Of a stretch of 39,416 nt of DNA, positions 160-20,310 are shown in pieces. The stretch spans positions 1 through 39,416 of the forward strand of contig JAUSGG010000181.1 of the NCBI GenBank assembly GCA_030649165.1, read 5' to 3'. The position numbers were made by a program, and so were the translations under genes. The DNA is from Armatimonadota bacterium. GTDB lineage: Bacteria > Armatimonadota > UBA5829 > JAUSEB01. Below the pieces are notes generated by a model. The model was given only the letters and a program-made list of their open reading frames with translations. It made no database searches and was not told where the DNA came from. The stretch's first letter is position 1. Each line of letters starts with the position of its first letter.

Positions 160-1896
160 ATGATACGGTACAAGATGAACGGTTACCCATCGAGCCCAAC
201 GGATGGAGCGCTCGCTGCCGATGAGGCGGGCGCTCCCGGCGCGGCGGACGGCTGCGCCCACTCCGGCCTTATGACGGGCGCGACCTACTACTATCGGGCG
301 TTTTCGCACGACGCTTTGAGCAACTACAACACTTCCACATCAGTTACGGCATCGGCGACAACCGGCTCCGGCACGCTTTGGCTCGATGAGACCTTCAACT
401 CATACCCCAATGGCAACCTCGGTAGCCAGGGCAACTGGGCCACGGTCGCCGGTGAAAGCCAGGTCGAATCGTCATTCGCCTCGGGAGGGTCCGGCAAGGC
501 GATACTCCTTGACTGCGTCGCGGCCGGCGGTACTGTGAGTAATGACTACGGCGGATTTGCGAAGAAGACTTCAGGAGCCCAGGCGATATCCTTCGACGCA
601 GCCCAGACCTGGGCGGGAACGACCTCGACCACCATCTTCGGAAGCCTCTACTTCTACGGCGACGACTCGGCGACGGAGATTGCCCGGTTCGGCGGAACGA
701 CGGGACAGTGGCGGCTGGAATACGGCTCAGGGAATGTAGCCATTCTTGAGAGTTCCGTGGTTCAGAACACGTGGTACAACATCAAGCTCGTCTTCGATAT
801 TGGCCAGAGGAAGATCAGCGCTTACGTCAACGGGGCAAGCAGAGCGAGCAGTCTTTCGTGGAAGACCGGCTCGGGAACCAATCTCGCCCGAATCAGTCCC
901 TCTTCAAGTTCAGTGTCGGGACTCTCGGTTCAGCAGTTGTACCTGGACAGCGTAAAAGGGGAGACTTATCCCCTGGCTCCGACCGGGGTCACGGACGACG
1001 GGGCTTACACCGGCTCCCTGAGCAAGCTGCACTGCTCGTGGACGGCGGGAGGTCCATCGTCCATCGAACACAAGTACGCGATAGGGACCATCCCAGGCGG
1101 AACAAACGTAGTGGGATGGACTAACGTAGGGGGTCTCACGGAGATATGGAAGGACGGTCTCGCGCTTGAGTCGGGCCGAACATACTACTTTGCCGTGCAG
1201 TCCGGAAACGGCTGCGGGTCGTGGACGACATCCGTCAACTCAAACGGCATAAAGACGCCTTCGGTCGAGGTAGGCATACTCGCCGCAAAGGCCCTGCCCA
1301 ACGGGTCTTTCGCGTTGGACAACAAGGCGATACGAGGCAAGGTGATCTCCGCCGTGTTCCCAGGCTACTTCTACATTCAGGAACCGAGCAGTTATGCCGG
1401 TCTAAAAGCTCTCTCGCCGATTTCCGTTACCGCGGGAGCTTACGTTGACGTCGCGGGCCTGATGAAAGGCGCCGGGGCCGAAAGATACATCGACTGCACG
1501 GGCAACGCAGTGGCGCTTACGACGCCCGGCCCCGGCGTTCCGTCTTCGGTTGTGATGACCAACGCGTCGGTCGGTGGGGCCGCTCTCGGCACGTACGCTC
1601 CCGCGGTCGTTGGCGCTATTGGGCCTTACAACATAGGCTCAATGGTAACTGTCTACGGGATAGTGACACAGAGGAAGACAACCGATCCGAAGTACTTCTA
1701 CATCGACGACGGCTGCGGTATTAGAGACGGGACAACGACGGACGGCGCTGAGAATGTGGGAGTGAGGATCATAGCGGATCCCGCCGGTTATCCGGTGGGC
1801 GCGTACCTGGCCGGCATCGGCATCGCCTCCTGTTTCGACAGTTCGGGGCTCAGGCCGCAGATGTTGCCCGTTAGCGCGCGGATTCTGTACCCTTAG
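160..1896 (+). CDS. Truncated secreted protein: FN3 (partial), LamG-like, FN3-like, C-terminal double OB-like domain
   Basis: This is the C-terminal part of a large extracellular protein whose 5' end is lost at the IS630-like junction near 139. The frame stays open upstream of the ATG at 160, which sits mid-domain (FTGTMIRYK), so that ATG is not the native start. Order from the ATG: rest of an FN3 domain (about 1-68), a concanavalin/LamG-like domain (about 72-268), an FN3-like domain starting SVTDDGAYTG-style (about 272-370), then two OB-like halves (about 373-578) with RGKVIS...FYIQEP and VTVYGIVTQ...FYIDDG. No catalytic module, signal peptide or anchor remains. It is very similar, in protein and DNA, to the end of the next gene (about 4220-5970), so it is probably a recent duplicate. 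Likely a pseudogene fragment, since it lacks its secretion signal. Confidence 0.75.
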   Translation: MIRYKMNGYPSSPTDGALAADEAGAPGAADGCAHSGLMTGATYYYRAFSHDALSNYNTSTSVTASATTGSGTLWLDETFNSYPNGNLGSQGNWATVAGESQVESSFASGGSGKAILLDCVAAGGTVSNDYGGFAKKTSGAQAISFDAAQTWAGTTSTTIFGSLYFYGDDSATEIARFGGTTGQWRLEYGSGNVAILESSVVQNTWYNIKLVFDIGQRKISAYVNGASRASSLSWKTGSGTNLARISPSSSSVSGLSVQQLYLDSVKGETYPLAPTGVTDDGAYTGSLSKLHCSWTAGGPSSIEHKYAIGTIPGGTNVVGWTNVGGLTEIWKDGLALESGRTYYFAVQSGNGCGSWTTSVNSNGIKTPSVEVGILAAKALPNGSFALDNKAIRGKVISAVFPGYFYIQEPSSYAGLKALSPISVTAGAYVDVAGLMKGAGAERYIDCTGNAVALTTPGPGVPSSVVMTNASVGGAALGTYAPAVVGAIGPYNIGSMVTVYGIVTQRKTTDPKYFYIDDGCGIRDGTTTDGAENVGVRIIADPAGYPVGAYLAGIGIASCFDSSGLRPQMLPVSARILYP

Positions 1897-1904
1897 ACAA
1901 TGCG

Positions 1905-1982: not shown

Positions 1983-2013
1983 AATATAAGCTAACACGTA
2001 TGGAGAGAGTGTT

Positions 2014-5000
2014 GTGCGAATTCTGATCTGTTTGGTTGTCCTGACTGCAACGCTGAGCGCCGGTTCCTTGTGGGCCGTCCCCAAGTCCATCATCGACTTG
2101 GGTTCGCCCGACACGGCGACGTTGATGACCCATATCCAGGTTGCGGACGGCGACACCACGCCCGCGACCATCGGCGGCCTGACTTGCCGCCGCAACGTGA
2201 ATCCCTCGGAAGACCGATACTTCTACTTCGGCATCGACAACAGTTTCGCATATCAGGGCAGCCGGCCCACCTTGTACATCACCATCCACTATTACGACAC
2301 CGGTTCCGGGTCGCTGGAGCTGCACTACGACTCGACCAGCGCCGCCTACACGAGCGGCGGCGCGGTGACTCTCACCAACAGCAACACCTGGAAGTCGAAG
2401 GGCTTTCGTGTCACGGACGGCTACTTCGGCAATCGCCAGAACGGCGGGGCCGATTTCCGAATAGTCGGTCCGGCCTCGACCACATTCTACCTCGACCTGG
2501 TGTACGCGCGAGACTTCTGCGGGCCAAACCCCCGCGTTCGCATTCATCCGCCTCCCGGACGGCCAACTATGAACGCGCAAGCAACGCGCGACCTGATGGA
2601 GAATTGGGACCAGTGGCAGGTGACTCGAGCTTACACGAACGTCTTCGGCGATTACGATCATTCCATCCCCAACTTTACGGACGCTGAACTCAGCTCTTTC
2701 TACGCTCAACTCGTCGCATCCGGCATAGGCATCTGCATGGAGACCGGAGCCATAACCCAAAACGGCGGCGAGGAGGCGTTCAATAACAATAAGGCTTTGC
2801 ACGACCGCATCATCAGTAATGGAGGCCCGCTTGATTCTCTGGCTATGCAGGAGCCTCTTACGGGAGCCCGTTACAACAACTGGGGAAACGAGTTCGCGGC
2901 GAACGAAACGGTGGACTGGATCCAGTTGGTGCGCCAGAACCGCCCGGGAGTCCGGATAGGCAGCATCGAGGCCTATCCTTATAACAGCCAGTCTTTGCTG
3001 CAGTGGTGGATTACGGCTTTGCAGGACCGCTGCGCTCAGAGGGGGGTCGAAGGAATAGACTTCTTCGAGATAGACTGCGACTGGCGGATTTTCCCCAGCC
3101 AGGGCAACTGGACAACGGTCAAAAACCTTGAAACCTGGTGCCACAACAACGGGCTTGCCTACAGCGTTATCTACTGGCCGGGCCCTCACGCGTCGAGTAT
3201 GAATGACATAGATTTCTACACCGACATCATGAACCAGGGCAACGCCTATAAGAACGCCGGAGGCGCGCCGGACGAGTACGATATCCAGTGCTGGGACTAT
3301 ATCCCGTTGAACACCGTGCCGGAAACCACGAACTATACCTTTACCAATGGGGCCATCAGGTTCATAAACGCGTACGTGCCGCGACCTCAGAGCCCCTACA
3401 ATGGCGTCATTTCGCTGCCCGGGATTATCCGGGCCGAGAACTTCGACAAAGGCGGGGAGAATGTAGCGTATCACGATCTATCCATCGGCAATACGGGCGG
3501 CGACTACCGCATCGATGACAGCGTCGATATAGAAACCGTTGGAGGCATTCGCAACGTCGGGTGGATCGAGACCGCCGAATGGCTGGAGTATACGGTCAAT
3601 GTGGCCGCCGTCGGCAGCTACACCATCGAAGTCAGGGTTGCCACTCCGAACAATGGGTGCACGTTCCACATCGAGATAAACGGAACCAACGTCACGGGGA
3701 CGCAGACGATTCCCAACACGACTGATTGGCGCATTTGGACCTCGAAGATCGTCTCAGGGGTCAGCCTCAACGCGGGAGAGCAGACGCTGCGGCTCGTGGT
3801 CGATAGCGGGAGCTGGAACGTCGATTACGTTTACGTGAGAAGCGCCGCGGCGCCTATCGATCCGGTGACGAATTTCACCGCCGACTATGGTGGCAGCCAG
3901 AACACGCTCTCTTGGACCAACTCGAGCGACAGTCGCTTTACCGGCACGATGATCCGCTACAAGACCACGGGCTATCCTACGAGCGTCACCGATGGAACGC
4001 TTGTGATAAACAAATCCAACAATCCCGGAACGAGCGACAGCCACATCCACACCGGGCTGACAAGCACGGTGGCTTACTACTACTCTGCTTTCGCTCACGA
4101 TGGCGCCGGCGGATACGCGAGCAAAGTGGACGCCGGCGCCATGCATCCCGTGACGAGCTTTACCGCGTCCGCGGGCTTGCAGCAGGTCAATCTCTCGTGG
4201 CAAAACCCGCCCAATCTTGATTACACCGGAACGATGGTCCGGTACAAGACGAACGGCTATCCTTCCGACATATCGGACGGCGCTCTACTGACCGATGAGC
4301 CCGGCCCTCCCAACGCGTCAGACGGCTGCGTCCACTCCGGGCTCATAACCGGGGCAACTTGCTACTACCGGGCGTTCTCGCACGACGCTTTGAACAACTA
4401 CAATACGTCGACATCAGTTACGGCATCCGGGACAACCGAATCCGCGACGCTTTGGCTTGAGGAGACGTTTGACGCTCGCGCAAACGGCAACCTGGGAGGG
4501 CAGGGCAACTGGACCACAGTCGCCGCGCAAAGCCAGGTGGAATCGTCCTTCGCCTCGGGAGGATCGGGCAAAGCAATACTCCTCGACTGTGTCGCCGCGG
4601 GCGGCACGGTGACAAATGACTACGACGGATTTGCGAAGAAGACTTCAGGAGTGCGGGCGGTTTCTTTCGACGTATCCCAAACGTGGGCCGGAACGACCTC
4701 GACCACCATCTTCGGCAGCCTTTATTTCTACGGAGATGATTCATCGACGGAGATAGCTCGCTTCGGCGGAACGACGGGGCAGTGGCGGCTGGAATACGGC
4801 TCAGGCAACGTGGCCATTCTTGAGAGTTCCGTGGTTCAGAACACGTGGTACAACGTGAAGCTCGTCTTCGACGTAGTCACGAGGAAGGTCAGCGTCTACG
4901 TCAACGGCGCAAGCAAAGGCAGCAACCTGGCCTGGAAGACAGGTTCGGGGACCAATATTCATAGAATCAGCCCCTCCTCAAGTATCGTCTCTGGACTCAC

Positions 5001-5973
5001 TGTTCAGCAGCTCTATCTTGACAACATAAGAGGAGAAACCTCTCCCGCGGCCCCGGCTTCGGTCACGGACGACGGGGCCTACACCGGCTCTCTGAGCAAG
5101 CTGCACTGTTCCTGGACATCGGGAGGGCCGTCGGCTGTCGAGCACAAGTACGGCATAGGGACATTTGCCGGTTCGACAAACGTATTGGGATGGACGGACC
5201 TTGGGTCTGCCCTGGAAGTCACAAAAGACGGCCTATCGCTGGAAGCGAACAGAACTTACTACTTCACCGTGCAGTCAGGAAACGGCTATGGGACCTGGAG
5301 CAATTCCACCAACTCGAACGGCATCAAGACGCCGACCGCCGCTGTGGACATACTTGCGGCAAAAGGTCTGCCGAACGGATCACTGGCCGCGGACAACAGA
5401 GCGATAAGAGGCAAGGTGATCTCCGCGGCGTTTCCTGGATATTTCTATATCCAGGAGCCGGGCGGCTACTACGGCCTGAAAGCTCTCTCATCCGCTGCGG
5501 TCACTCCCGGCGCTTATGTCGATGTCGCGGGATTGATGAAAGGCGCGGGAGCTGAGAGATACATAGACTGCACGGGCAACGCCATCGGCACGACAACTCC
5601 GGGACCGGGTGTTCCGAGTCCTGTCGTCATGACCAACGCGTCGGTCGGTGGAGCCTCTCTTGGCCTGTACTCCCCCGGAGTCACGGGCGCGATAGGGCCC
5701 CACAACATCGGCTCTCCGGTGACGATCTACGGCAGAGTGACCCAGAGGAAGACGACCGATCCGAAGTACTTCTACGTAGACGACGGCTGCGGTCTGAGAG
5801 ACGGAACGACGACCGGCGGAGAGGAGAATGTCGGAATCAGGGTGATGGCCGATCCGGCGGCCTATGCCGAGGGCTGCTACGTCGCCATTGCGGGTATCAG
5901 CTCCTGCTTCGACTCAGCGGGCATGAGGCCGGAGATATTGCCAATCGCCATTACAGTTCTGAGGACGCCATAA
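2014..5973 (+). CDS. Secreted multidomain protein: TIM-barrel-like module, CBM6, two FN3, LamG-like, double OB-like
   Basis: The start is GTG with GGAGAGAG just upstream. A Sec signal peptide (about 1-22, ending SLWA) leads into a beta-sandwich-like domain (about 25-165) and then a region (about 170-455) with features of an alpha/beta barrel, such as GIDFFEIDCDW and LAMQEP. A family 6 carbohydrate-binding module follows (about 468-610: IIRAENFDKGG ... IETAEWLEYTVNV ... TLRLVVDSGSWNVDYVYV). Then come two FN3 domains (about 617-706 and 711-809), a LamG-like domain (812-1009), an FN3-like domain (1013-1106) and a C-terminal double OB-like module (1109-1319). It probably binds, and perhaps hydrolyses, a plant or microbial polysaccharide outside the cell. 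The barrel's glycoside hydrolase family was not identified. The next gene starts 18 nt downstream, so the two are probably cotranscribed. Confidence 0.85.
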   Translation: MRILICLVVLTATLSAGSLWAVPKSIIDLGSPDTATLMTHIQVADGDTTPATIGGLTCRRNVNPSEDRYFYFGIDNSFAYQGSRPTLYITIHYYDTGSGSLELHYDSTSAAYTSGGAVTLTNSNTWKSKGFRVTDGYFGNRQNGGADFRIVGPASTTFYLDLVYARDFCGPNPRVRIHPPPGRPTMNAQATRDLMENWDQWQVTRAYTNVFGDYDHSIPNFTDAELSSFYAQLVASGIGICMETGAITQNGGEEAFNNNKALHDRIISNGGPLDSLAMQEPLTGARYNNWGNEFAANETVDWIQLVRQNRPGVRIGSIEAYPYNSQSLLQWWITALQDRCAQRGVEGIDFFEIDCDWRIFPSQGNWTTVKNLETWCHNNGLAYSVIYWPGPHASSMNDIDFYTDIMNQGNAYKNAGGAPDEYDIQCWDYIPLNTVPETTNYTFTNGAIRFINAYVPRPQSPYNGVISLPGIIRAENFDKGGENVAYHDLSIGNTGGDYRIDDSVDIETVGGIRNVGWIETAEWLEYTVNVAAVGSYTIEVRVATPNNGCTFHIEINGTNVTGTQTIPNTTDWRIWTSKIVSGVSLNAGEQTLRLVVDSGSWNVDYVYVRSAAAPIDPVTNFTADYGGSQNTLSWTNSSDSRFTGTMIRYKTTGYPTSVTDGTLVINKSNNPGTSDSHIHTGLTSTVAYYYSAFAHDGAGGYASKVDAGAMHPVTSFTASAGLQQVNLSWQNPPNLDYTGTMVRYKTNGYPSDISDGALLTDEPGPPNASDGCVHSGLITGATCYYRAFSHDALNNYNTSTSVTASGTTESATLWLEETFDARANGNLGGQGNWTTVAAQSQVESSFASGGSGKAILLDCVAAGGTVTNDYDGFAKKTSGVRAVSFDVSQTWAGTTSTTIFGSLYFYGDDSSTEIARFGGTTGQWRLEYGSGNVAILESSVVQNTWYNVKLVFDVVTRKVSVYVNGASKGSNLAWKTGSGTNIHRISPSSSIVSGLTVQQLYLDNIRGETSPAAPASVTDDGAYTGSLSKLHCSWTSGGPSAVEHKYGIGTFAGSTNVLGWTDLGSALEVTKDGLSLEANRTYYFTVQSGNGYGTWSNSTNSNGIKTPTAAVDILAAKGLPNGSLAADNRAIRGKVISAAFPGYFYIQEPGGYYGLKALSSAAVTPGAYVDVAGLMKGAGAERYIDCTGNAIGTTTPGPGVPSPVVMTNASVGGASLGLYSPGVTGAIGPHNIGSPVTIYGRVTQRKTTDPKYFYVDDGCGLRDGTTTGGEENVGIRVMADPAAYAEGCYVAIAGISSCFDSAGMRPEILPIAITVLRTP

Positions 5974-5991
5974 GGGTATAAGGAGCGCAAC

Positions 5992-8220
5992 GTGAGAAAA
6001 CCGAACTGCGGATTTGTAATCCTGACCATAGCTTTGCTCGCATTGTCCATAGCAGGCACGGCCTGGGGTCAGTCGGTCCGGTGGAACGCTGACGGAACGA
6101 AGTCGCTGACGCAGGAAACCTGGACACTGGCCGGGAATCCGAGCGACGGCCTGACGAAGTCCAACGACTTCTCGAACGGTCAGGCCGACACGGGATCCGA
6201 CGGTGTCTGGCACATCAACGATAACAACAGCCCGTCGGCGGCCTACATGAGAATGTACAAGGACCCGGGAGGACTATCCTCCCAGGGCATCGTTATGGCC
6301 AGGGCGAGGTTCATTGCGGCGTCGGCCAGCATATCCGGCACGTTCGGTTACTCCTATGCGTCGGGCAATCACTCCGTCGTGATGGCGATCAGGGGCGGAC
6401 AGATCAACTGGAAGACGGCGGAGAGCGACAACATGGTTCCAGCTCCCGTCAGCGTCGATACCTCGGTCTATCGCGTTTACGCCCTGAGGTGGTACTCGGA
6501 CGGCTCGTTCGACGCCTGGTATTCCAACACGACCGACTGGAGTTCCAACCAGAGTGATTGGACTCAGGTCGTGTCCGGCGGGCGCGTCGATACCGGCATT
6601 TCGCAGACCGCTCTCATCGATCACAACAGCGTCGCTCGGACCGGCCTTCTCCTGGGCAGCTTCGGCACGAGCACGATATCCTGGGAAGGCAACGTCGATT
6701 ATATCGCGTGGTCCAACAACAGCGGGGAATGGCTGCCCTGGAACTTCAACCCGCTCCCCACGCAGCCCGATGACTCGCAGTACGTCAGCGACACGATCCC
6801 CTCCGCAATGGGGCCCGGCCAGCAGTACAGCGTGTCCGTAACTCTGAAGAACAGCGGAAGCAACACGTGGACTGCCGCGGCCGGCTACAAACTTGGCGCG
6901 GTCGGCGACTCCGACCCCTTCTGTGCCTTCAACAGAGTCGATCTGGCGGGCGGGGACTCCATCGCCCAGAACCAGCAGAAAACCTTTAGCTTCACGATGA
7001 CCGGCCCCTCCACGCCGGGCACATACACCACCGACTGGCGGATGATCCACGAGGGCATAGGCTGGTTTGGCTACACCTTGACCAAGCAGATCGCGGTACT
7101 CTGGCCTGATTCCGCTCAGTATATCTCCGACACTATCCCAGCCACAATGAACGGCGGCCAGCAGTACAACGTCTCCGTCACGATGAGGAACACCAGCCAG
7201 AACACCTGGACGCTGGCCTCCGGCTGCAGGCTGGGAGCAGTGGATGATTCGGACCCGTTCTACAGCGAGGGCCGCGTCGATTTGGGACCGTCCGAATCCA
7301 TCGGTCCGGACCAGCAAAAGACCTTCAGCTTCACCATGACCGCCCCGAGTTCCGCGGGCACATACACGACCGACTGGAGAATGGTGCGCGAGAGTCTCTG
7401 GTGGTTCGGCGACACCCTCACGAAACAGGTTGAGGTTGCATTCACAGGTCCGCCGCCAGGGCTGCTCCTGGATGATCCCCTTCAGGGATCGACGAGCGGA
7501 ACGCGTCAGGGAGGGCAGTTCGTCACCGGCGGATGGAAGGTAACCGGCACGCAGGACTGGATCTTCTGGCATCTGCCTTACACTGTCAGCCATGGCGCGG
7601 CCGAGTTCTACATAATAGGGCTCAACTCCAGGGATAGTCGCCCCACCATGTACGACAAGACCGAACTCTGGCACATGTACGACTACACCTATGGCAACGC
7701 CGACTATCAGTACAATGGCGGGTACAGAGAGAACCCCTACAAGCACTTCATCAGGAAGAACGGGGTAGCGAGCGACTATAACAACACGACCGACGCCTGC
7801 GAGGTCTTGTGGGCCACTCCGACCGAATACTATGAAGCCGACACGCCCGTCCTGAGCTGGAACGCCGCCAACAACTATCACTTCCGGGTGGAATGGGGGC
7901 CGGACGGTCAGGGCAACAGCGTGCTGAAGATATATCGTGACGGGGTTCTGGTCCTCGAACGGGGTGTCGCCGGGCAATTACGCTCCGCCCGGCCACAGTG
8001 TCAGGATTGCGTCCAGCAACAGATACGCCGCGGATTCGGGCGCGCCGATAGATGCGATTTTCAGCTATGTGAAGGTGTGGGATCTGTCCACCTATGTGCC
8101 AAACGCTCCCACCATCGTTTCGCCCGTGAGCGGCTCGACCCGGAAGAGCAACCTGGCCTTCATCAAATGGTCCGGCGACACCTCGACCAGGTATCAGGTC
8201 AGAGTCTGCACGGTGAATGA
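5992..8220 (+). CDS. Secreted protein, 5' part: LamG-like, two NBR1-type Ig-like domains, LamG-like (frameshifted gene)
   Basis: The start is GTG with AAGGAG about 6 nt upstream, 18 nt after the previous gene. A signal peptide (about 1-26, cleavage near AWG/QS) is followed by a LamG/concanavalin-like domain (about 30-250). Two Ig-like repeats of the NBR1 type follow (about 262-362 and 375-482), each with a 'sDtIP..M..GQQY.VSVT..N...NTWT ... TFSFTMT.P...GTYTTDWRM' pattern. A second LamG-like domain (about 487-660) ends this frame. After about residue 657 the frame becomes unrelated sequence (RGVAGQLRSARPQ...) while the natural continuation appears one base over, from about 7960. The real protein therefore spans 5992-11503 (about 1837 aa) unless the shift is genuine. 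Confidence 0.8.
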   Translation: MRKPNCGFVILTIALLALSIAGTAWGQSVRWNADGTKSLTQETWTLAGNPSDGLTKSNDFSNGQADTGSDGVWHINDNNSPSAAYMRMYKDPGGLSSQGIVMARARFIAASASISGTFGYSYASGNHSVVMAIRGGQINWKTAESDNMVPAPVSVDTSVYRVYALRWYSDGSFDAWYSNTTDWSSNQSDWTQVVSGGRVDTGISQTALIDHNSVARTGLLLGSFGTSTISWEGNVDYIAWSNNSGEWLPWNFNPLPTQPDDSQYVSDTIPSAMGPGQQYSVSVTLKNSGSNTWTAAAGYKLGAVGDSDPFCAFNRVDLAGGDSIAQNQQKTFSFTMTGPSTPGTYTTDWRMIHEGIGWFGYTLTKQIAVLWPDSAQYISDTIPATMNGGQQYNVSVTMRNTSQNTWTLASGCRLGAVDDSDPFYSEGRVDLGPSESIGPDQQKTFSFTMTAPSSAGTYTTDWRMVRESLWWFGDTLTKQVEVAFTGPPPGLLLDDPLQGSTSGTRQGGQFVTGGWKVTGTQDWIFWHLPYTVSHGAAEFYIIGLNSRDSRPTMYDKTELWHMYDYTYGNADYQYNGGYRENPYKHFIRKNGVASDYNNTTDACEVLWATPTEYYEADTPVLSWNAANNYHFRVEWGPDGQGNSVLKIYRDGVLVLERGVAGQLRSARPQCQDCVQQQIRRGFGRADRCDFQLCEGVGSVHLCAKRSHHRFARERLDPEEQPGLHQMVRRHLDQVSGQSLHGE

Positions 8221-11200: not shown

Positions 11201-11503
11201 GCTTACACTCCCGGAGTCATAGGGGCGACTGGACCGAACAACATCGGTCTATACATGACGGTCATTGGCCAAGTGACTCAAAGAGACACGGGAGACGCCT
11301 ACTTCTACGTCGATGACGGCTCCGGCAAGCTCGACGGAACACAGACCGGGGGAATCGATAACGTAGGAATTCGAATTTCGGCTGATCCGACGGACTACCC
11401 CGCGGACAGCTACGTGATGGTAACCGGCGTAAGCTCCTGCTTCGACAGCGGCGGTTTGCGGCCGCTCCTGTTGCCGAGCCGGATAACCCTGTTGCGGCCG
11501 TAG
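7937..11503 (+). CDS. Secreted protein, 3' part: Ig-like, glycosidase-like barrel, FN3, LamG-like, FN3-like, double OB-like
   Basis: This is the downstream half of the frameshifted gene; the GTG at 7937 is only an upper limit. It continues the LamG-like domain (to about residue 50), then an Ig/FN3-like domain (52-150: YQVRVCTVNDP...). A (beta/alpha)8-type region follows (about 155-580) containing VEVANEGW, where NE311 resembles the acid/base Asn-Glu of clan GH-A glycosidases, and TTEHFERY, a candidate nucleophile strand. Next come FN3 (588-685), LamG-like (689-881), FN3-like (885-978) and double OB-like (982-1188) domains. It is likely an extracellular glycoside hydrolase. The GH family and substrate were not assigned. 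No signal peptide is present in this half, as expected for the rear of a split gene. Confidence 0.78.
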   Translation: MTGFWSSNGVSPGNYAPPGHSVRIASSNRYAADSGAPIDAIFSYVKVWDLSTYVPNAPTIVSPVSGSTRKSNLAFIKWSGDTSTRYQVRVCTVNDPNSGVAWDSGEVSSARNWAWSGTLTDVTNYYAYVRIGSSAGWSGWSAPGHWFRTDSSQSGSENVLLLGNSYADDDGPFLGLGVTYMAAMWMCKYDRTNFRGDLAFLQQKGFNYMRILSEVPAADAQDYWYNRAILPNNIVCQHGTPANAWPDYDQQFRDTIDIAYDEYGIRTEITVFGGAGESMPNYSTRQAHCQRIINLIAGREHKVILVEVANEGWQTGWSGEQGRLDLRSIGQYLADRTSIPIALTAMCTSEATQGDLVNLYSGSAADVTTEHFERYINGPEGHWFPVRDCWRVVDVPGLPPASSNEPIGPGSSVNTEDDPIHLASAAAFAWTANLNSYVFHSSAGVRRDVTFQSMAGINNMGYLRQILPPDLSSWVRNDGKESTAPFTAYCNGQANKYWTDVGGATSGCHRNIGGRKGNEFVCYPQGILNGGLILEARQQVTFTVYNPLTGAVVVETTIKNPGQQLNLPKGPEAYIIKGVLGAADIAAPAAPSAFTAISNGTTNDLSWTNPADADFAGTIIRYRTDTYPTGPTDGTLVCNRTASPGSNDSFPHTGVNPASPYYYAAYAYDEVPNYSLAALASTVPSTIPVWLNEIFDNYNNGNLGNQGAWLTVGASSAQAQSAYAKGGTGKSALMDTVPSGQSVANQITFSDKTSGYCYLSFDIAQDATATLGQVLGYVTIYGSDSATEITKLHIQKSRMFVEYGSGSLTTLSAAVANTTWYNVRFGFNVDTRKFDLWLDGAPKGTNYSWEGTATRISRIVISSDRNPSADPQKIYIDNVKLEPKLTISSVTDDGSWSPSLDKLHFSIAPVAGALQYHYAVGTTSGGTQVRGWTNCGSSTDYTATGLSLIQTTTTYYVSAQASMYGNFGPTASANGIKIAPGIGTILAAKGLANGAPTDVKALRGKIVTATFPGCFYIQEPGGLHGLKVISTASVAPSDEVDVAGVMAGAGSERFMDSSGNGVIRTTPGPGVPPAVIVGGASVGGVELNAYTPGVIGATGPNNIGLYMTVIGQVTQRDTGDAYFYVDDGSGKLDGTQTGGIDNVGIRISADPTDYPADSYVMVTGVSSCFDSGGLRPLLLPSRITLLRP

Positions 11504-11745
11504 CGTAGGTTGTCGCAACCTGGAGGTCTAGTACAATTACCAGTTTACTCCCGCAATCGTTGACGCACTATTGACAGCCTGGTAACTTGGTAATAGGAAC
11601 TCAAGCCTCGAATCCTTCCGTGCCCGGATGCGGTTGTTCGCTTCGGCTTGTTCCGTTGAGAAGCGAAACCAACGCTCCGATGGCCGGACTAGGGCGACGG
11701 CGAGTGGTGACGCCGTTTGCCTGCAACAGGAAAGGAAAATCTGTA
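11504..11745 (+). other. 242-nt intergenic leader with hairpin potential and a weak promoter
   Basis: There is no protein gene here. TTGACA at 11571-11576 is a perfect -35 box, but the nearest good -10 (TAATAG, 11591) is only 14 nt away, so the promoter is doubtful. Downstream, CGCTTC/GAAGCG (about 11639-11665) and ACGGCG/CGCCGT (about 11696-11715) can each form a 6-bp hairpin. No known riboswitch core was recognised. A GTG-start gene with a good ribosome-binding site follows. Confidence 0.35.
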
Positions 11746-14700
11746 GTGACACGTTCTGAACTCCCTCCGAGGTGGCGTCCTGCCGGACGCTTGGTCGTCG
11801 GCTCCACGCTCGTGGCCGCGGCGCTCATCCTATCGGTCGTCCCCTTCTCCCCGGTCGCGAGCGCCACGCTCCTCGGCCCGCAGATCAACATTACCAGCAG
11901 CGGAACGTACTGGCCTAACGAATGCTATAACCCGTATTCCGACCGTTACCTGGCGTTGTGGGTGGACGTGACAGACCCATCCGGTTGGCAGACGAAAGCT
12001 CGGCAGATCGACGCCGTGACCGGCGCGGTGATCGGGTCTGAATTCTACGTGTCCTCCAATCCGGCGAGCGTAGTGGCGGTCACCGGGAACGCGACCTACA
12101 ACTCAGTCAACCAGGAGTGGTTTGTTGCCTATAAAGCCAATTTTGGAGGCGGCAATCTGGAGGACGTAATCGGTCAGAGGATTGCGAGCGATGGGACGCT
12201 TGTCGGCGGATGGATTCCTCTGGTGGCCAAGTCCGCCTACCAGAACGAGCAGGCCGTTGCCCACGACCCCGTCAACAACAGGTACCTTGTAGTCTGGATG
12301 GAGGTCGTAGGAGGCGAGCGTGACGTGAAGGGCAAGTTCTTCAACCAGTATGGCTCTCCCATCGGTTCCGAGTTCCCGATAAGAGACTCTGCGTCCAGCT
12401 ACAATGGCTACGAGCCCAAGGTCTCCTACAACCCTTACTACGACGAGTTCATGGTGATATGGAAGGACTACCGCAACTACATCGGGACCGGCCAGGATAA
12501 CGAGTATGGCGACATCTACGGCCAGAGGATCAACGCCAACACTATGGCGAAGATCGGCGTGAATATCCCGATCTACTGGGGAGGATCGCCTTACGTCACC
12601 AACGGGCAGGATTCGCCCGGAAGTTTGGTCTGCAATCCGAACGATGGTCGGTACTTCATAGGTATGACTACCCTGACGGCTGCCTACGGCTGGACCGTCC
12701 GCGCGCTGGTCATCAACTACGACGGGAGTTTGCACAGCGGTATACTCAACGTCACCCACCCGGCGTTCGGCACCTGCCAGGGTGTTGCGTTCAGCGACTA
12801 CGATGACACCTACGCCATAAGCTTCCAGGCAGGCGACGGAAGCTTCTCGACACGGCGCTACACGGCGGCGGGAGCGCCTGTCGGCGGCGTCGATATCATC
12901 CTTCCACCGATGGCGTCGGAGGGCGGCGATCTCGCGGTGCGCGGGACGACCGGGGACTTCCTGCAGCTCGGATACAGCTCCAGCAATCACGCGCTCAAAG
13001 GGCAGCGATTCGCGTTTGCCGCGGACACCTTCGCGCCCGGGACCGTCAACCCGCTTCGCGCTTACAGGCAGTCGGACACGAGCGCGCTCCTGACCTGGGC
13101 CAACCCCTACGACCTCGACGTGGCGGGCGCCATGATTCGCTATCGCACGGACACGTATCCTACGTCTATTACGGACGGGACGCTTCTCTGCAACCGCGCG
13201 GCGACTCCGGGGTCGAGCGATTCGTTCGCGCACGCGGTAACAGCCGGACAAGCTTACTACTACACCGCGTTTGCGTACGACGGCATCCCGAACTACTCCG
13301 CTGGGACTAATGCGGTCTCATCACTGGTCTGGCTGAACGAGCCGTTCGATAACTACGGAAACGGCCCGCTGGACGGCCAGGGAGGCTGGATCAAGGACGC
13401 CGCCAAGAATAGCTGCATTCTGCAGGAGACCACCCGCGTGGGAGGCTCCGGCAGAGCAGCGGAGCTCTTCGGCAGCGCCACCGTCTACGACGACGCCAGT
13501 GTTGCCAACTTCGGAACGATCAGCGGCGGGTATCACAGGATCAGCTTCGATATGCGCCGCAATACGAGCGCCACAAACAACCAGGCGTTCATCGGAATCT
13601 TCCAGGGTCCCACCATCATCACGAGAGCTTACTGGAGCACGAATTTCTCGTTTTTGCACGGCCCCGGAGCGCTCTTCACGGAACTGGTGACAGGCCCGGT
13701 GTCCGGCCAATGGTACCACGTTGAGATCGGAGTCGACCTGACAAATCGGACGCTGGACGCCTGGGTGGACGGCGCGCAAAAGGCGTCCGCGAAGCCGTTC
13801 TACCAGACCGCGTCGCAGATCAACACCATAAACCTGACCGGCTACAGCGCGGCCACGGCGGCATCCTATCTCGACAACCTCAAGGGGGAGAGGATTCTCA
13901 CGACGATTCCGCCCTCAGCCCCGACAATCACCGGCCCGGCGCAAGGCTCGACGGTGTACACCCCAACGCCGCGCGTAACCTGGACCGGCGACGTTCACGA
14001 CGCCTATGAGGTCCACGTCAACACTACGAACAACCCCACCGATGGATCGAGCTACGATTCGGGGACGGTAGTGAACGGCGGCGGCCAGCACGACGTGGGG
14101 CCGCTCGCCGCCAACCAGAACTACTACGTCTTCGCTCGCCTGCGCAACGGCATAGGATGGGGCAACTGGAGTTCGGCGGGGCGCTGGTTCCGAGTTGAGG
14201 ACGACGGCGCGCCACCGGCGGCCCCGTACGATTTCAACGCGCTCGGAACCAACGCGGCCGTCAAACTGAACTGGACGAATCCTTCCAACGCGGACCTTGC
14301 CTCTGTCGTGATTCGTTTCCGCGCCGATCGGTGTCCCACTTCGGAAAACGATGGTATGCTTGCCGCCACGCTTTCAGGCATGACTCCGGGGGCTAACGCT
14401 ACTTACACCCACACAGGTCTGACAAACGGGGTCAGGTACTACTACAGCGCATTTGCGGTCGATCAATGGGGGCTCTATTCGCCGCCGACGGGTGACTTCG
14501 CCGCGCCTGAGACGTGGACGGTCGAGTATGCGGCCGACGCGCTTCCGTCCGTCTCCAGCCCCGCATGGACGATATTCGACGCCGGCAACGACGAGGCATA
14601 CAGCCACATCGAGCCCGGCGGCGGTATTCTGCACATCCTCGACAACTCCATAGACTGGGGCACGAAGATACGCTGGTACCGCGACTGGTCGGCGTCCAAC

Positions 14701-15684
14701 GCCGCCGGAACGACCGTTCTGACGCGCGCCGGATGCGACTCGGCGACCGCGACCGAGTATACGAGCAACGTGACCCTGTCGGACGGCGCGATGTACATTA
14801 ACTTCGTCATCCTGCCGGACAAGGTCGCTTCCAAAGCCGAGGCCACCGCGATCCTGGACCAACAGTATTCGCTTAACGGAACCCTGTACCACAAGTACCG
14901 GTTCACCCTGATAGGAGCGACTTACGCCTGCCGCGTCGATGAGGACCCGACCCCCGTTTTCACCGGCCCGGCCTACGCCACAACGGACAATAAAGTGGTC
15001 TTCGGCGCGAACGGCTCAAATGCGATGCAGAGTATCTACTACGACTATCTGCTTTACAGAACCGATTCAGCGGCGGCTCCGGCCGGACCATCCCAGAGCA
15101 TTCTGGACGCGAAACTCAGCGCGAACGGGGCGCCGGTCACTATTCCGGCGAACGCGGTGAGCCTGGCTTCCGGCAACTACTTTTACATTGAGTCGCCGGA
15201 CGGATTGCACGGTCTGCGCGTGGAGAGGCTATCGCACGGCAGAACCGCGGGGCAGGCGGTCGATGTGATCGGAACAATGTACACAAACCCGGACGGTGAG
15301 CGTTACGTGTCCGCATCGTCAACGCCATCCATCGGATCGGGGACCTCCCGAGCTGTGATGATGAAGGCTTCGGACCTCGGCGGCGCGAATCTCCAGTACA
15401 ATCCCTCGACCGGCGCCGGCCAACAGGGCGAAGAAGGCGGAGTTGGGCCGAACAACGTCGGCCTGCTCGTCTCTGTCTGCGGCGAAGTGACCGGGGTGGA
15501 TCCGGGCGGCGCGTATTTCTGGGTCGATGACGGCTCAGGTCCATTGAAGGTCGTGAGCGGCTCTCTTGCCGAGCCGGTCAAGCCTTATGTGTCGGTCACA
15601 GGCGTATGCGGGCTCGACGCCTCCAGCGGCGACGCGCTCGCTGTAATACGCCCACGGACGCAGAGCGATATTGTCGAGTTTTAA
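11746..15684 (+). CDS. Secreted multidomain protein: propeller-like repeats, FN3, LamG-like, Ig-like, double OB-like
   Basis: I chose the GTG at 11746 because AGGAAAGG lies 8-10 nt upstream and a clean signal peptide follows (about 16-40, VGSTLVAAALILSVVPF, ending VASA). An alternative TTG at 11587 would put 53 unlikely residues in front. Residues about 49-425 are repeats of 45-60 aa with 'YNP.YDE.mViWkD...DIYGQRi' patterns, like a secreted beta-propeller. After it come FN3 (432-522), LamG-like (525-715), Ig/FN3-like (720-818), FN3 (824-918), LamG-like (924-1112) and the most diverged double OB-like tail of the set (1115-1312). No catalytic residues were recognised, so a binding or adhesive role is more likely than hydrolysis. 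The gene is followed 39 nt later by the next array member. Confidence 0.83.
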   Translation: MTRSELPPRWRPAGRLVVGSTLVAAALILSVVPFSPVASATLLGPQINITSSGTYWPNECYNPYSDRYLALWVDVTDPSGWQTKARQIDAVTGAVIGSEFYVSSNPASVVAVTGNATYNSVNQEWFVAYKANFGGGNLEDVIGQRIASDGTLVGGWIPLVAKSAYQNEQAVAHDPVNNRYLVVWMEVVGGERDVKGKFFNQYGSPIGSEFPIRDSASSYNGYEPKVSYNPYYDEFMVIWKDYRNYIGTGQDNEYGDIYGQRINANTMAKIGVNIPIYWGGSPYVTNGQDSPGSLVCNPNDGRYFIGMTTLTAAYGWTVRALVINYDGSLHSGILNVTHPAFGTCQGVAFSDYDDTYAISFQAGDGSFSTRRYTAAGAPVGGVDIILPPMASEGGDLAVRGTTGDFLQLGYSSSNHALKGQRFAFAADTFAPGTVNPLRAYRQSDTSALLTWANPYDLDVAGAMIRYRTDTYPTSITDGTLLCNRAATPGSSDSFAHAVTAGQAYYYTAFAYDGIPNYSAGTNAVSSLVWLNEPFDNYGNGPLDGQGGWIKDAAKNSCILQETTRVGGSGRAAELFGSATVYDDASVANFGTISGGYHRISFDMRRNTSATNNQAFIGIFQGPTIITRAYWSTNFSFLHGPGALFTELVTGPVSGQWYHVEIGVDLTNRTLDAWVDGAQKASAKPFYQTASQINTINLTGYSAATAASYLDNLKGERILTTIPPSAPTITGPAQGSTVYTPTPRVTWTGDVHDAYEVHVNTTNNPTDGSSYDSGTVVNGGGQHDVGPLAANQNYYVFARLRNGIGWGNWSSAGRWFRVEDDGAPPAAPYDFNALGTNAAVKLNWTNPSNADLASVVIRFRADRCPTSENDGMLAATLSGMTPGANATYTHTGLTNGVRYYYSAFAVDQWGLYSPPTGDFAAPETWTVEYAADALPSVSSPAWTIFDAGNDEAYSHIEPGGGILHILDNSIDWGTKIRWYRDWSASNAAGTTVLTRAGCDSATATEYTSNVTLSDGAMYINFVILPDKVASKAEATAILDQQYSLNGTLYHKYRFTLIGATYACRVDEDPTPVFTGPAYATTDNKVVFGANGSNAMQSIYYDYLLYRTDSAAAPAGPSQSILDAKLSANGAPVTIPANAVSLASGNYFYIESPDGLHGLRVERLSHGRTAGQAVDVIGTMYTNPDGERYVSASSTPSIGSGTSRAVMMKASDLGGANLQYNPSTGAGQQGEEGGVGPNNVGLLVSVCGEVTGVDPGGAYFWVDDGSGPLKVVSGSLAEPVKPYVSVTGVCGLDASSGDALAVIRPRTQSDIVEF

Positions 15685-15723
15685 GGAAAACGCTTCCGGC
15701 CCGGCCCTCGGACGAACCATTCA

Positions 15724-18700
15724 ATGAAGGCGGCTATGCTAATGAGAAAGGCGCTTGCTGAGGCGATCGCACTGGCGTTCGCCATCGCGACTCTGACTGT
15801 GACGGTAGCGGGAGCGGTTCTGCTCTTCGACGACCCTCTGACAAGCGGGGCCACGATCGGCGTCCGCGACAACGGCCAGGGGCTTTTCGTAAGTGGTCAG
15901 GGTTGGAAGGTCATCGCTTATTCCGATAACATCCGCTATACTCCCACGCCCCCCGTTGAAGATGGGGCCGTGGAGTTCGAAGTGATCGGCCTCCAACCCA
16001 GCGATAATCTGAACCCCGACGGCCAGCTCATGAGCATGTACGACGCCTCGTATGGCGATCCCCGCCACGTGTACGCTCCCGATCTCAGGATGAACCCCTA
16101 CAAGTTCGTCTGGCATCGCTACGGCGACGACGGCGCGCAGTACCACGAAGACGAGTTCAAGATGATCATGAACACCGGCGGTTTCAACCAGTTCGAGGAT
16201 TACTCCGCGATCGGCAAGTATCCGTGGAATCCAGCGACCAAGTACAGCCTCAAGGTGAGGTGGAAGGACGGCGTCGTCCGTTTCTACCTCAACGGAGCCG
16301 AGACGGATGGCTGGCCGTGGTTCTACAAGGAAGTTTACAGACCGGGCATCCACGACATACGCATCGGCACCAACACTCGCGACAACGCGATCATCAACGC
16401 GATCTACTCCAATGTGAAGATCTACGATTATGGCCCCACCCCGACAGCGCCCTACGTCAACAATCCAAAGCCCGGCGGAATCGTGAACACCCTCACTCCT
16501 GTCATCGACTGGACCGGAGAGCGGCACGACAGCTACGAAGTCCACGTAACCACTTCCACAGATCCGACGACCGGCGTCGTTTGGGACTCGGGAGAGGTTT
16601 CGAGCACGAACAGCTACTGCACGTCCGGCTCCCTCAGCGACGGCGCGACGCACTACGCCCACGTAAGGCTTCACAACGACAAGGGGTGGGGACCGTGGAG
16701 CGCCGCTCAGCAGTTCCAGACGAACACGGGCGGAACCGTCACGGTTCCCAAATTCGGAGAATACGAGATCGCTCTAACGACGAGCGCCTCGTACGCAAAC
16801 CCTTACACTCAAGTGACTCTCTCGGCAACCTTCACAGGCCCGACTCAGACTATTACGGTCAACGGCTTCTGGGATGGCGGAAAGCTGTACAAGTTCCGCA
16901 TGACGCCGACCGAGGTCGGAGCCTGGTCGTGGGCCACGACATCGAACGACAGCCAGTTGAACGGGAAGACCGGCGGATTCACGTGCGCGGACTCGACCAA
17001 CAAAGGGTACGTCAGGGTTTCGACCGCTTATCCGTACACATACGAGTGGGCCAACGGGACGCCGTTTTTCCTCATGGGCGACACAACCTGGCATATGTGG
17101 TACAACATCCGTTACTCCGATGGGTCGTTCCGGAGCCTCATAGACGCCCGGGCCGCGCAGCATTTTAACTATATGCACGGCGTCGTGCACGACTCGCCCC
17201 ACAACGAGGGCGGCGGCATCTACCGCGGCCAGAAGGCGTCCATCGCCGATCCAAACAAGGCAATATGGGACGTCAACACGCTTAACCCCGGCTATTTCCA
17301 CTGGCTCGACAAGAAGATCGACTACATGAACTCGAAAGGTATGGTCGCGAGCCTCTTCTTCTCCTGGGGGAACGAAGGATACGACCTCGACTACGAGTCG
17401 CCGTCTCAGTACATCGCCTATATCAAATACCTGGTCGCCCGCTATGCGTCAAAGAATGTTATATGGATCATAGTCGGCGAATACGAAGAAGCCGGTGAGT
17501 CCAACTCGCAGTGGATCGCCTACATGGACACGGTGTACAACAACGATCCCTACAAGCATCCGATCTCGATGCACACCGTGAACACCACCAACGCGTTCGG
17601 CGGCACGACCTCACATTCGTTTGTCGGCCAGCAGCGCCAGGGTACGCCGGAACAGCTTCGTATCGATATAGCGGGCTCGCGTGTCTACAACAAGCCCGTG
17701 GTCAACCTCGAATACGGCTATGAGGGCGATCCGGTCATGTTCCCGGCCAACCAGTCGGCGGACGACGTTCGCAAGGACCACTACGGTATATGTCTGGCGG
17801 GCGGCTACGGCGTCTACGGTAACAACAAGCCGGGCTATTCCACTTATCACGTCACGAGCGACTTTGTGCTGACGGGGACCGATACTCCCGGCGCCCAATA
17901 CATGAAAATCCTGTACGAGTTCTTCGCGCAGACCAACTTCCACCGGCTTGCGCCTTCCCAGAGCTTGACGAGCAACGGCATTTGCGCCGCCTGGCCCAAC
18001 AACGAATATATCGTCCAACTGGTCGTGGGGACCAGCGTAACGGTCAACCTGTCCGGCGCGAGCGGAACCTTCTACGTGGACTGGTTTAATCCGCGCACGG
18101 GGGTCAGGACCGCCGCGGGGACTACGACCGGGGGCGGCAGCCGCAACTTCACCGCGCCCGACAGCAACGACTGGATTCTGCACATCCACAATTACGTGAT
18201 TAACATCCCAGGGAGCACAGTGACCAACTTCACGGCGGTGGGAGGCGACAGACAGGTCAGCCTCTCCTGGACGAACCCAACCGCCGCCGATTTCACGGGA
18301 ACGTTGATCCGCTACAGGACCACAGGCTATCCAACCGGCCCCTCGGATGGGACGTTTATAATCAACAAGGCGAATACCCCCGGCTCAAACGACAGTTACC
18401 TGCACACTGGCCGCACGAACGGTGTCACCTACTACTATTCGGCGTTTCCGCACAACGCGGCTCCGATATATGGACCCGCCGCTAATGCGGTCGCCACTCC
18501 GATAGACACCGTGCCTCCGGGGCCGGTGACGTCCTTCGCCGCGGTCGCCGGCGAGCTGCAGGTAAACCTCTCTTGGACCAACCCCTCCGATACGGACTTC
18601 ACCGGAACGATGGTTCGCTGCAAGACCAGTGGCTACCCCACAAGCATCTTCGATGGCCAACTCGTCGTGGATGAACCGGGCGCGCCGGGAACCACCAGCG

Positions 18701-20310
18701 GCAGTATTCACACAGGACTGCTCGGCAACACCACTTACTACTACCGGGCGTTCTCTCACGACGCCGTCCCGAACTACAATACCTCCTCGTCGGTTACGGC
18801 GTCCGCTGCCACTCCCGTCAGTTCCGTCTGGCTCAACGAGACCTTCGACAACTACGCGAACGGCGATCTGGCAGGCCAGGGAGCATGGACTAAGGAACCG
18901 ACGAAGAACAGTTGTCTGATCCAGGACGTGATCTATATCGGCGGCAGCGGCAAAGCCGTCGAGATACTCGGCAACAGCACGACTTACGACGATTCCAGCA
19001 TCGCCGGCTTTGGCTCCATAACCAGCGGGTACCACCTCATCAGTTTTTATATGCGGCGCAATGCCGCCGCCTCCAACAACCAGGCGGTCATGGAGTTCCT
19101 GGACGGAACAACCAAGATCACGCGAGTATATTGGACGACGACATACAACATGCTGACCGGTCCGGGCGTCACCTTTACGGACCTCGTGACATCTCCGGCA
19201 TCGGGCATGTGGCGCCACATCGAGGTCGGAATAGATCTGGATTCCAGGACCGTGGACGCATGGGCTGACGGTGTCCAGAAAGTCTTCGACATGCCGTTCT
19301 ACCAGGCCGCCACCAAAATCACCTCGCTGAACCTGACCGGCTATTCCGGGGCGAGCATAGCGTCATACATAGACAATCTGAAGGGCCGAAGCGTGTCGGC
19401 TCCGCTCTTGCCGGTCGTCACGGACCAGGGAGTCTACACCGGCTCGCTCACCACGCTTGCCTGCTCCTGGCAGCCCGGAGACCCGGCAGCGCTGGAGTAT
19501 CGTTACGCCATCGGCGCGAGCCAGGGGGGCACGGATGTCGTGGATTGGACGTGGGTCGGTGGAGCCGGCGGCGTGACGAGGACCGACCTCAGCCTCTCAG
19601 AGAACGCTGCCTACTACTTCTCCGTGCAAGCGGGCAGCGGTTACGGACAGTGGAGCGGCTCGGGGTTCTCCGATGGGATAACGACAGCCCCGGGGGTGGG
19701 CGTACAGGAAGCTAAAGCTCTTCCGGATAACGCCGTGAGGTCCCTGAGAGGCAAAGTAGTCACCTGCGGCTTCGGCGACAACTTCTATATTCAGGAGTCG
19801 GACAAGCCCTTCGGCATACTCGTGGTCGCGTCTGGAACTGAGGCTGAAGGGAATCTCGTGGATGTCGCCGGGGCCATCAAAGGAACCGGCGCCGAGAGAT
19901 ACATCGACTGCGTGGGAAACGCGATCAACGCCACTAGCCCCGGCCCCGGTCTCCCCGATTCACTCGTTATCGCCAACTCCGCCCTGGGCGGCGCTCAACT
20001 CAACCCGAACACCCCCGGAGTCTTCGGAGGATTTGGCCTCAACAACATAGGCTCCCGGGTGACCATATTCGGCAAAGTGACCGCGGTCGGAACGGGCTTC
20101 TTCTACCTCGATGACGGAAGCGCGGTGACCGATCCGAGGACAAACCCCGGCACGGGCCAGCCTTGCGTCGGAGTGAAAGTCCTCAGTTCCGTCGTCCTGC
20201 CGGACGTCGGCAATTACTGGACGGCAACAGGCATCTCGACAGTGGAATCCGATTCCGGCAATCTCATACGCGTCCTGCGCGCAACCGAGGCGCACATACT
20301 GCGTCCGTAG
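15724..20310 (+). CDS. Secreted apiosidase-like (DUF5060-DUF4038) glycosidase with FN3, LamG-like and double OB-like domains
   Basis: A signal peptide covers about 7-30; starts at 15724 or 15742 (MRKALAE) are both possible and neither has a strong RBS. Order: LamG-like (33-237), Ig-like (239-334), DUF5060 beta-sandwich (343-430: TVNGFWDGGKLYKFRMTPTE), then the DUF4038 barrel (440-736) with the hallmark GTPFFLMGDTTW, NVIWIIVGEYEE and VVNLEYGYEG (candidate catalytic acids around E586, E663 and E667). A PF12904-type C-terminal sandwich follows (738-821: WFNPRTG). DUF4038 proteins include GH140 apiosidases acting on rhamnogalacturonan-II side chains, so a pectin-related substrate is plausible but inferred. 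Two FN3 domains (833-926, 933-1029), LamG-like (1035-1222), FN3-like (1230-1326) and double OB-like domains complete it. This is the best-supported enzyme of the array. Confidence 0.88.
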   Translation: MKAAMLMRKALAEAIALAFAIATLTVTVAGAVLLFDDPLTSGATIGVRDNGQGLFVSGQGWKVIAYSDNIRYTPTPPVEDGAVEFEVIGLQPSDNLNPDGQLMSMYDASYGDPRHVYAPDLRMNPYKFVWHRYGDDGAQYHEDEFKMIMNTGGFNQFEDYSAIGKYPWNPATKYSLKVRWKDGVVRFYLNGAETDGWPWFYKEVYRPGIHDIRIGTNTRDNAIINAIYSNVKIYDYGPTPTAPYVNNPKPGGIVNTLTPVIDWTGERHDSYEVHVTTSTDPTTGVVWDSGEVSSTNSYCTSGSLSDGATHYAHVRLHNDKGWGPWSAAQQFQTNTGGTVTVPKFGEYEIALTTSASYANPYTQVTLSATFTGPTQTITVNGFWDGGKLYKFRMTPTEVGAWSWATTSNDSQLNGKTGGFTCADSTNKGYVRVSTAYPYTYEWANGTPFFLMGDTTWHMWYNIRYSDGSFRSLIDARAAQHFNYMHGVVHDSPHNEGGGIYRGQKASIADPNKAIWDVNTLNPGYFHWLDKKIDYMNSKGMVASLFFSWGNEGYDLDYESPSQYIAYIKYLVARYASKNVIWIIVGEYEEAGESNSQWIAYMDTVYNNDPYKHPISMHTVNTTNAFGGTTSHSFVGQQRQGTPEQLRIDIAGSRVYNKPVVNLEYGYEGDPVMFPANQSADDVRKDHYGICLAGGYGVYGNNKPGYSTYHVTSDFVLTGTDTPGAQYMKILYEFFAQTNFHRLAPSQSLTSNGICAAWPNNEYIVQLVVGTSVTVNLSGASGTFYVDWFNPRTGVRTAAGTTTGGGSRNFTAPDSNDWILHIHNYVINIPGSTVTNFTAVGGDRQVSLSWTNPTAADFTGTLIRYRTTGYPTGPSDGTFIINKANTPGSNDSYLHTGRTNGVTYYYSAFPHNAAPIYGPAANAVATPIDTVPPGPVTSFAAVAGELQVNLSWTNPSDTDFTGTMVRCKTSGYPTSIFDGQLVVDEPGAPGTTSGSIHTGLLGNTTYYYRAFSHDAVPNYNTSSSVTASAATPVSSVWLNETFDNYANGDLAGQGAWTKEPTKNSCLIQDVIYIGGSGKAVEILGNSTTYDDSSIAGFGSITSGYHLISFYMRRNAAASNNQAVMEFLDGTTKITRVYWTTTYNMLTGPGVTFTDLVTSPASGMWRHIEVGIDLDSRTVDAWADGVQKVFDMPFYQAATKITSLNLTGYSGASIASYIDNLKGRSVSAPLLPVVTDQGVYTGSLTTLACSWQPGDPAALEYRYAIGASQGGTDVVDWTWVGGAGGVTRTDLSLSENAAYYFSVQAGSGYGQWSGSGFSDGITTAPGVGVQEAKALPDNAVRSLRGKVVTCGFGDNFYIQESDKPFGILVVASGTEAEGNLVDVAGAIKGTGAERYIDCVGNAINATSPGPGLPDSLVIANSALGGAQLNPNTPGVFGGFGLNNIGSRVTIFGKVTAVGTGFFYLDDGSAVTDPRTNPGTGQPCVGVKVLSSVVLPDVGNYWTATGISTVESDSGNLIRVLRATEAHILRP

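Follow-up and report, generated by a model that had tools for sequence, protein, structure and literature searches.

The window analysed here is a stretch of 39,416 nucleotides from an Armatimonadota bacterium and comprises an entire contig (C52) of a 5.48-Mb genome (G000), which is assembled into 266 contigs with a completeness of 99%. Five genes lie head to tail on its + strand from the left end of the contig to position 20310 (1-20310; Table 1). A sequence-only reading, made without database searches, had described their products as secreted proteins with interchangeable N-terminal modules and a common tail. Here we report that the part common to all five products is the last ~200 residues, made up of two OB folds (OB1 and OB2, together the double-OB domain), and that in one Armatimonadota class this domain closes ~50-100 exported proteins per genome. 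The array itself is ordinary in its context and is partly damaged by an insertion sequence (IS) and a frameshift.

Domain maps of the five genes were obtained with seeds from the window and iterated hidden Markov models. When the five tails were compared with the tail of gene 2, the E-values ranged from 0 to 1.7e-49, far past chance, and the FN3, LamG-like, Ig-like and OB domains at the ends of the products were found to be homologous. Independent phylogenetic origins of the tails were not found. In the modelled structure of the tail alignment (gene 2 tail), AlphaFold predicted an all-beta multidomain chain with a pLDDT of 81.8. The observation of five genes with related tails is real, with corrections, among them that the middle of gene 4 differs and that gene 3 is split into two open reading frames (ORFs). 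In gene 4, a Rha78A-like Ig, an FN3 and a LamG-like domain replace the Ig-like domain, so that it shares only FN3, LamG and the double-OB domain with the other tails; its second LamG-like domain, which precedes the double-OB domain, was assigned by reading the sequence.

The front modules named in the sequence-only reading were borne out in part. Pfam supported CBM6 in gene 2, two NBR1-Ig domains in gene 3, and DUF5060 followed by an Apiosidase-like domain (PF13204) in gene 5. The PF13204 match scored 121 bits against a cut-off of 26.5, and it and DUF5060 were each matched over almost their full length. Compared with the family that combines these two domains, gene 5 adds LamG and Ig modules ahead and an FN3-LamG-Ig-OB-OB tail behind. 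The barrels of genes 2 and 3 and the propeller of gene 4 had no Pfam match and were assigned by sequence reading; for the two barrels, a sequence search of the PDB gave no match either.

Genes 1 and 3 are both damaged. The front of gene 1 had been listed as truncated, and the view of this gene as a biologically short member was rejected. The first 140 bp of the window (1-140) are 100% identical to four other sites in the genome, three of which are contig starts. They belong to an IS630-type element with at least five identical copies including that of the window, the others lying on C205, C207, C37 (start) and C85:30-1142. The copy on C85 is complete and carries a transposase ORF of 362 residues on the minus strand, and the assignment to IS630 comes from reading the transposase sequence. 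Because the element lies in the FN3 domain of gene 1 and the contig ends inside the element, gene 1 appears truncated; several contigs start in this element, which indicates that it fragments the assembly. In gene 3, alignment to paralogues revealed a single frame change near position 7970, with the two ORFs overlapping at 7937-8220. Three paralogues read through this position (on C92, 1792 residues and uninterrupted, and on C51 and C38), and programmed frameshifting was set aside for this reason. The apparent frameshift may be a sequencing error or mark a young pseudogene.

Table 1. Features of the array and its borders (window coordinates)
Feature	Position	Strand	Content
End of IS630-type element (transposase start), inserted in gene 1	1-140	-	Contig breaks within the element
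Gene 1	139-1896	+	FN3 fragment, LamG-like 349-969, Ig-like 994-1254, OB1 1318-1518, OB2 1567-1845; front lost to IS/contig end
Gene 2	2014-5973	+	Signal peptide, beta module 2092-2496, barrel-like 2518-3378, CBM6 3388-3837, FN3 x2, LamG-like, Ig-like, OB1, OB2
Gene 2, complete tail	4150-5973	+	FN3 4150-4404, LamG-like 4423-5043, Ig-like 5068-5328, OB1 5389-5592, OB2 5641-5919
Gene 3 (ORFs 5992-8220 and 7937-11503)	5992-11503	+	LamG-like, NBR1-Ig x2, LamG-like, Rha78A-like Ig, barrel-like 8411-9679, FN3, LamG-like, Ig-like, OB1 10925-11128, OB2 11177-11452
Gene 4	11587-15684	+	Propeller-like front 11869-13041, FN3, LamG-like, Rha78A-like Ig, FN3, LamG-like, OB1 15124-15333, OB2 15373-15627
Gene 5	15724-20310	+	LamG-like, Rha78A-like Ig, DUF5060 16738-16998, Apiosidase-like catalytic domain 16999-18243, FN3 x2, LamG-like, Ig-like, OB1 19726-19932, OB2 19981-20256
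DDE transposase (DDE_Tnp_1 + DUF4372)	20514-21776	-	Borders the array on the right; differs from the IS630-type element at the left end

The double-OB domain and its spread

A Foldseek search with the whole tail was dominated by FN3 matches, so the double-OB domain was modelled separately. AlphaFold, given 71 double-OB sequences, predicted a double OB fold with a pLDDT of 95.5 and a pTM of 0.91. Foldseek matched this model to the OB domains of SSB, Teb1, RPA and LysRS, with E-values down to 1.9e-4; the overall TM-scores of these matches were modest because two OB units were compared at once. The fold is identified by the high-confidence prediction of a five-stranded beta barrel and by the structural matches to OB folds. 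Conservation is highest at glycines, in an ER pair and a DDG motif, and in the linker between the barrels, GG...PGVxGGxGxNNIG. The domain is acidic, with an isoelectric point below 7 in 63 of the 71 sequences (median 4.9) and a median net charge of -4.

No family in Pfam or NCBIfam covers the domain in the 71 ends searched. Two of them touch BOF/YgiW (PF04076), with a best E-value of 3.5e-5. In a profile search against the PDB, the nearest match to OB1 was the OB region of an endonuclease (PDB 9sf8, E=0.0013), followed by YgiW (E=0.0034) and then RPA14. The OB domain associated with endonuclease/exonuclease/phosphatase proteins (9sf8) and PF04076 are thus the nearest sequence-profile relatives of OB1, but there the match is to one OB domain close to the N-terminus, whereas the domain described here sits at the C-terminus as two OB folds in tandem, joined by a conserved linker. 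A literature search of papers available without subscription returned no description of it. The occurrence of this domain throughout a class, with neither a library model nor a description found, is the notable finding of this work.

The tail occurs well beyond the five genes of the array. A shortened tail alignment, searched against a genome collection, returned four Armatimonadota records of metagenome-assembled genomes. The window genome holds 19 full FN3-LamG-Ig-OB-OB tails, every one of them at a protein end, and 101 matches to the double-OB domain, some of which are fragments at contig ends; a closed 3.29-Mb genome of a relative has 67. At least 15 matches were found in 24 of the 28 genomes of the class, and single matches in 6 of the 173 other genomes of the phylum. 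The domain is absent from four members of the class, namely G006, G008 and G016, which make up the whole of genus g6 here, and G024, the only genome of genus g16. Genus g6 also has 0-2 secretin-like genes, fewer than most of the class.

The position of the domain in the protein is nearly constant. In 71 of 77 ORFs, the end of OB2 lies 15-25 residues from the stop codon. Among 53 carriers sampled in the closed genome, the domain ends at most 48 residues from the protein end in 48 and at most 15 residues from it in 44. By a simple hydropathy measure, nearly all carriers of this genome begin with a hydrophobic segment of the signal-peptide type (41 of 52 above the set threshold, most of the others by inspection). 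A C-terminal segment resembling a transmembrane helix was found in none of the 53, and C-terminal hydrophobicity was similarly low in nearly all other carriers. The fronts are varied and include GH9, GH20, GH99, GHL10, Apiosidase, NAGPA, subtilases, Amidase_2, PQQ and WD40-type propellers, and carboxypeptidase-regulatory-like proteins. Genomes of the class without the domain encode relatives of the enzyme domains of two carriers in shorter ORFs, mostly of 360-620 residues compared with 1629 and 1027 residues in the carriers. The tail therefore looks like an add-on to those two enzymes. Some proteins end in two or three consecutive double-OB units (L063:4185-7376, L072:4427-6622, L083:255-4964 and 5034-10223, and L077:7189-12450). 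On L077, up to seven Ig-like domains stand in a run ahead of further C-terminal modules.

Composition of the array and exchange among tails

The sequence-only reading had explained the array by head-to-tail duplication with module swapping. In a maximum likelihood tree of 27 tails from the window genome and a second genus, the five window tails fell in four separate positions, with at least 4 label changes, which is not clearly fewer than with shuffled labels. The tails of genes 1 and 2 formed a recent local pair (support 99/97), and C58 holds a third close copy. The tail of gene 3 grouped with dispersed copies on C51, C38, C92 and C218, which share its barrel; the front of one further C51 copy in this group is cut by a contig end. 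The nearest tails to those of genes 4 and 5 belong to two adjacent genes of the other genus, where their order is the same. Across the two genera, gene 4 is 69% and gene 5 is 71% identical overall, and their catalytic or propeller fronts are 81-82% identical. Because the tails occupy four positions in the tree and the pair of genes 4 and 5 is kept in the other genus, we conclude that the array is a composite and one local cluster within a dispersed family: genes 1 and 2 are a tandem pair, gene 3 belongs to a set of dispersed paralogues, and genes 4 and 5 are an old pair.

Duplication of a single ancestor in place, followed by replacement of the front modules, would predict the mutual nearest-neighbour relationship of genes 1 and 2, which are adjacent and on the same strand, and a further array of related genes on contig C51 also speaks for it. 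Nevertheless, the four tree positions, the conserved pair in another genus and the gene 3 group, in which barrel and FN3-LamG tail stay together at dispersed loci, largely refute this explanation, and we regard it as quite improbable. Tandem duplication accounts for genes 1 and 2 only. Of the swapping that had been proposed, exchange was seen chiefly inside the tail, where trees of different segments conflict strongly.

This exchange is visible in the identities of single domains. The copy on C163 is 89% identical to two copies on C51 in OB1, compared with 41-55% in FN3, 50-55% in LamG and 65-66% in OB2. The copy on C113 is 86-89% identical in OB2 to one of the C51 copies (C51a) and to the copy on C92, and 50% identical in LamG. 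The OB1 group that includes C163 (support 93/82, which is moderate) was rejected by the FN3-LamG segment with a p-AU of 2.8e-9, and the OB2 group of C113, C51a and C92 (98/86) was rejected by both FN3-LamG (p-AU 1.6e-7) and Ig (0.01).

The relative conservation of fronts and tails points in the same direction. Within the genome, the barrels of the gene 3 paralogue group are 46-70% identical and their tail domains mostly 60-85%, the copy on C218 being an exception to the higher tail identity (Ig, OB1). Between the two genera, the ranking is reversed: the fronts of the gene 5 orthologues are 74-84% identical and their tails 48-72%. Constraint alone would predict the same ranking in both comparisons, and homogenisation of tails within the genome explains the reversal. 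The best reading of these sequence comparisons is that tail segments have been exchanged and partly homogenised by intragenomic gene conversion. The opposite patterns within and between genomes make this a clear case of tail homogenisation in a multigene family.

Possible roles of the double-OB domain

Because the domain forms the C-terminal end of many exported proteins that are otherwise unrelated, comes without a membrane anchor and is confined to one lineage, our judgement leans towards a cargo-independent C-terminal domain for surface retention or export, acting as an address or as an attachment. The suggestion of the sequence-only reading that differing fronts share one anchoring or targeting tail fits the evidence well. 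Such proteins would be exported by the Sec pathway through their N-terminal signal peptide and would fold outside the inner membrane. The double-OB end might then engage a surface receptor or an envelope component, so that the enzymes and binders would remain associated with the cell. In the family found in the window, a spacer of FN3-LamG-Ig stands ahead of the double-OB domain, and gene conversion within the genome would swap tail segments and partly even them out.

Dockerin, SLH and similar attachment modules place one shared end module on differing exported enzymes. The double-OB domain resembles them and other C-terminal attachment modules in being a common end on different exported enzymes. 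Neither the window proteins nor the double-OB ends matched a dockerin, SLH, LPXTG-type or PEP-CTERM-type module; for the fronts, the check for dockerin and SLH covers the 25 commonest front families listed. The hydrophobic C-terminal helix with a basic tail that characterises PEP-CTERM and LPXTG-type proteins was found in none of the 53 sampled carriers of the closed genome.

A closer parallel is the C-terminal domain (CTD) of the type IX secretion system (T9SS) of Bacteroidota, which two reports (PMC12618676, PMC4804311) present as a cargo-independent, lineage-restricted beta domain at the C-terminus of many Sec-exported proteins, with dozens per genome. The double-OB domain shares each of these properties: it too is cargo-independent, C-terminal, made of beta structure, present in dozens of copies per genome and restricted to a lineage. 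The two differ in structure, the T9SS CTD being a conserved beta-sandwich and the double-OB domain a tandem OB fold without a Pfam or NCBIfam match. None of the 71 double-OB ends matched the T9SS CTD families in Pfam and NCBIfam (Por_Secre_tail, TIGR04183 or similar). PorV is absent from 27 of the 28 genomes of the class, and the lone match to its family, in the window genome (C98:5763-6320), is weak at 31 bits, though above the curated cut-off. SprA was not found in the window genome, and a control set likewise contained none. The lack of a CTD match and the absence of PorV from these 27 genomes exclude the T9SS itself as the machinery as far as tested. It is a tentative possibility that an undescribed system of the class, for export across the outer membrane or attachment to the surface, recognises its clients by the double-OB domain. 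The domain would then be a functional counterpart of the T9SS CTD built on another fold, borne by ~50-100 clients per genome, among which gene conversion exchanges the tails.

The main competing explanation is that the tail is a substrate-binding region resembling a carbohydrate-binding module (CBM), in which FN3, LamG and the double-OB domain attach to polysaccharides of plants or microbes and so carry the fronts to their substrate. Many fronts are glycoside hydrolases that carry other CBMs (CBM6, CBM9-like, CBM35-like), and both LamG-like jelly rolls and OB folds are established carbohydrate-binding folds. Against this, the domain also ends subtilases, WD40-type propellers, carboxypeptidase-regulatory-like proteins and peptidoglycan amidases, and the double-OB ends have no CBM match. 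Its strictly C-terminal position and its restriction to one class are atypical of CBMs, which are mobile across phyla and along the chain. Substrate binding is rather unlikely as the explanation. We rate as less likely still a structural cap or maturation domain that would aid folding or stability or protect against proteases, with no role in targeting. The high predicted rigidity, the constant end position and the proteins with two or three terminal units are what such a cap would lead one to expect; yet relatives of two of the enzyme domains occur in shorter ORFs in genomes of the class without the double-OB domain, and dozens of copies in one class but none in two of its genera would be hard to explain by a generic cap. 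Binding of nucleic acid, which would keep the proteins in the biofilm matrix through extracellular DNA, appears very improbable. The endonuclease region, YgiW and RPA14 found in the profile search, and the SSB and other nucleic-acid-binding OB proteins among the top structural matches, agree with it, but the acidity of the domain does not, and OB matches to nucleic-acid binders mirror the composition of the PDB.

A targeting or retention function is thus what we infer for the double-OB domain, and several points weigh against it. Neither a binding partner nor a component of a secretion system nor evidence of location ties the domain to the surface. The distribution of the type II/IV secretin family, which nearly all of the class has, does not match that of the domain. 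OB folds are often glycan or nucleic-acid binders, so that a ligand-binding role is possible, and in five of the sampled carriers of the closed genome the domain is internal. For the part that concerns exchange among tails, the groups tested in the segment trees were picked after the identity table had been viewed, and the C113 copy reaches the end of its contig and may reflect a chimeric assembly join.

Whichever role it has, the domain is a practical marker for surface or secreted proteins in a phylum that has been little cultivated. Should it be a targeting signal, the placement of enzymes outside the cells of diderm Armatimonadota becomes testable, and the four genomes of the class that lack the domain offer a natural comparison in the search for a partner.

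Surroundings of the array

The remainder of the contig consists of housekeeping, transport, restriction-modification and IS genes. The neighbours of the array are a transposase, DUF5131, CarboxypepD_reg, ProRS, HepT-like, URO-D, HlyD, MFS and type I restriction-modification genes, together with a HAD-like protein that was assigned by sequence reading. The sequence-only reading had raised a polysaccharide utilisation locus as the possible context of the array. Clustered enzymes with a transporter or SusCD-like pair and a regulator were not found on the contig, which ends upstream of the array. In a scan for consensus promoters and terminators, shuffled sequence gave more sites than the array itself.

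The second half of the contig has a defence and mobile character. Positions 21990-22856, 28016-28387, 34553-35338 and 36702-39227 encode, in this order, DUF5131 (phage Gp37-like), a HepT-like toxin family protein, DUF1828 and a fused type I methylase/specificity protein. A tandem repeat of ~114 bp (2.2 copies, 92% match) occupies 34020-34269 and translates to an HRWTRRG-like repetitive peptide of a type seen in spurious ORFs. Elsewhere in the window genome, a dispersed repeat of ~100 bp, 94-98% identical and probably intergenic, occurs at many sites (L014:14913-15016, L025:1067-1170, L052:12736-12839, L056:256-359, L061:2691-2794 and others) and could be a small non-autonomous mobile element.

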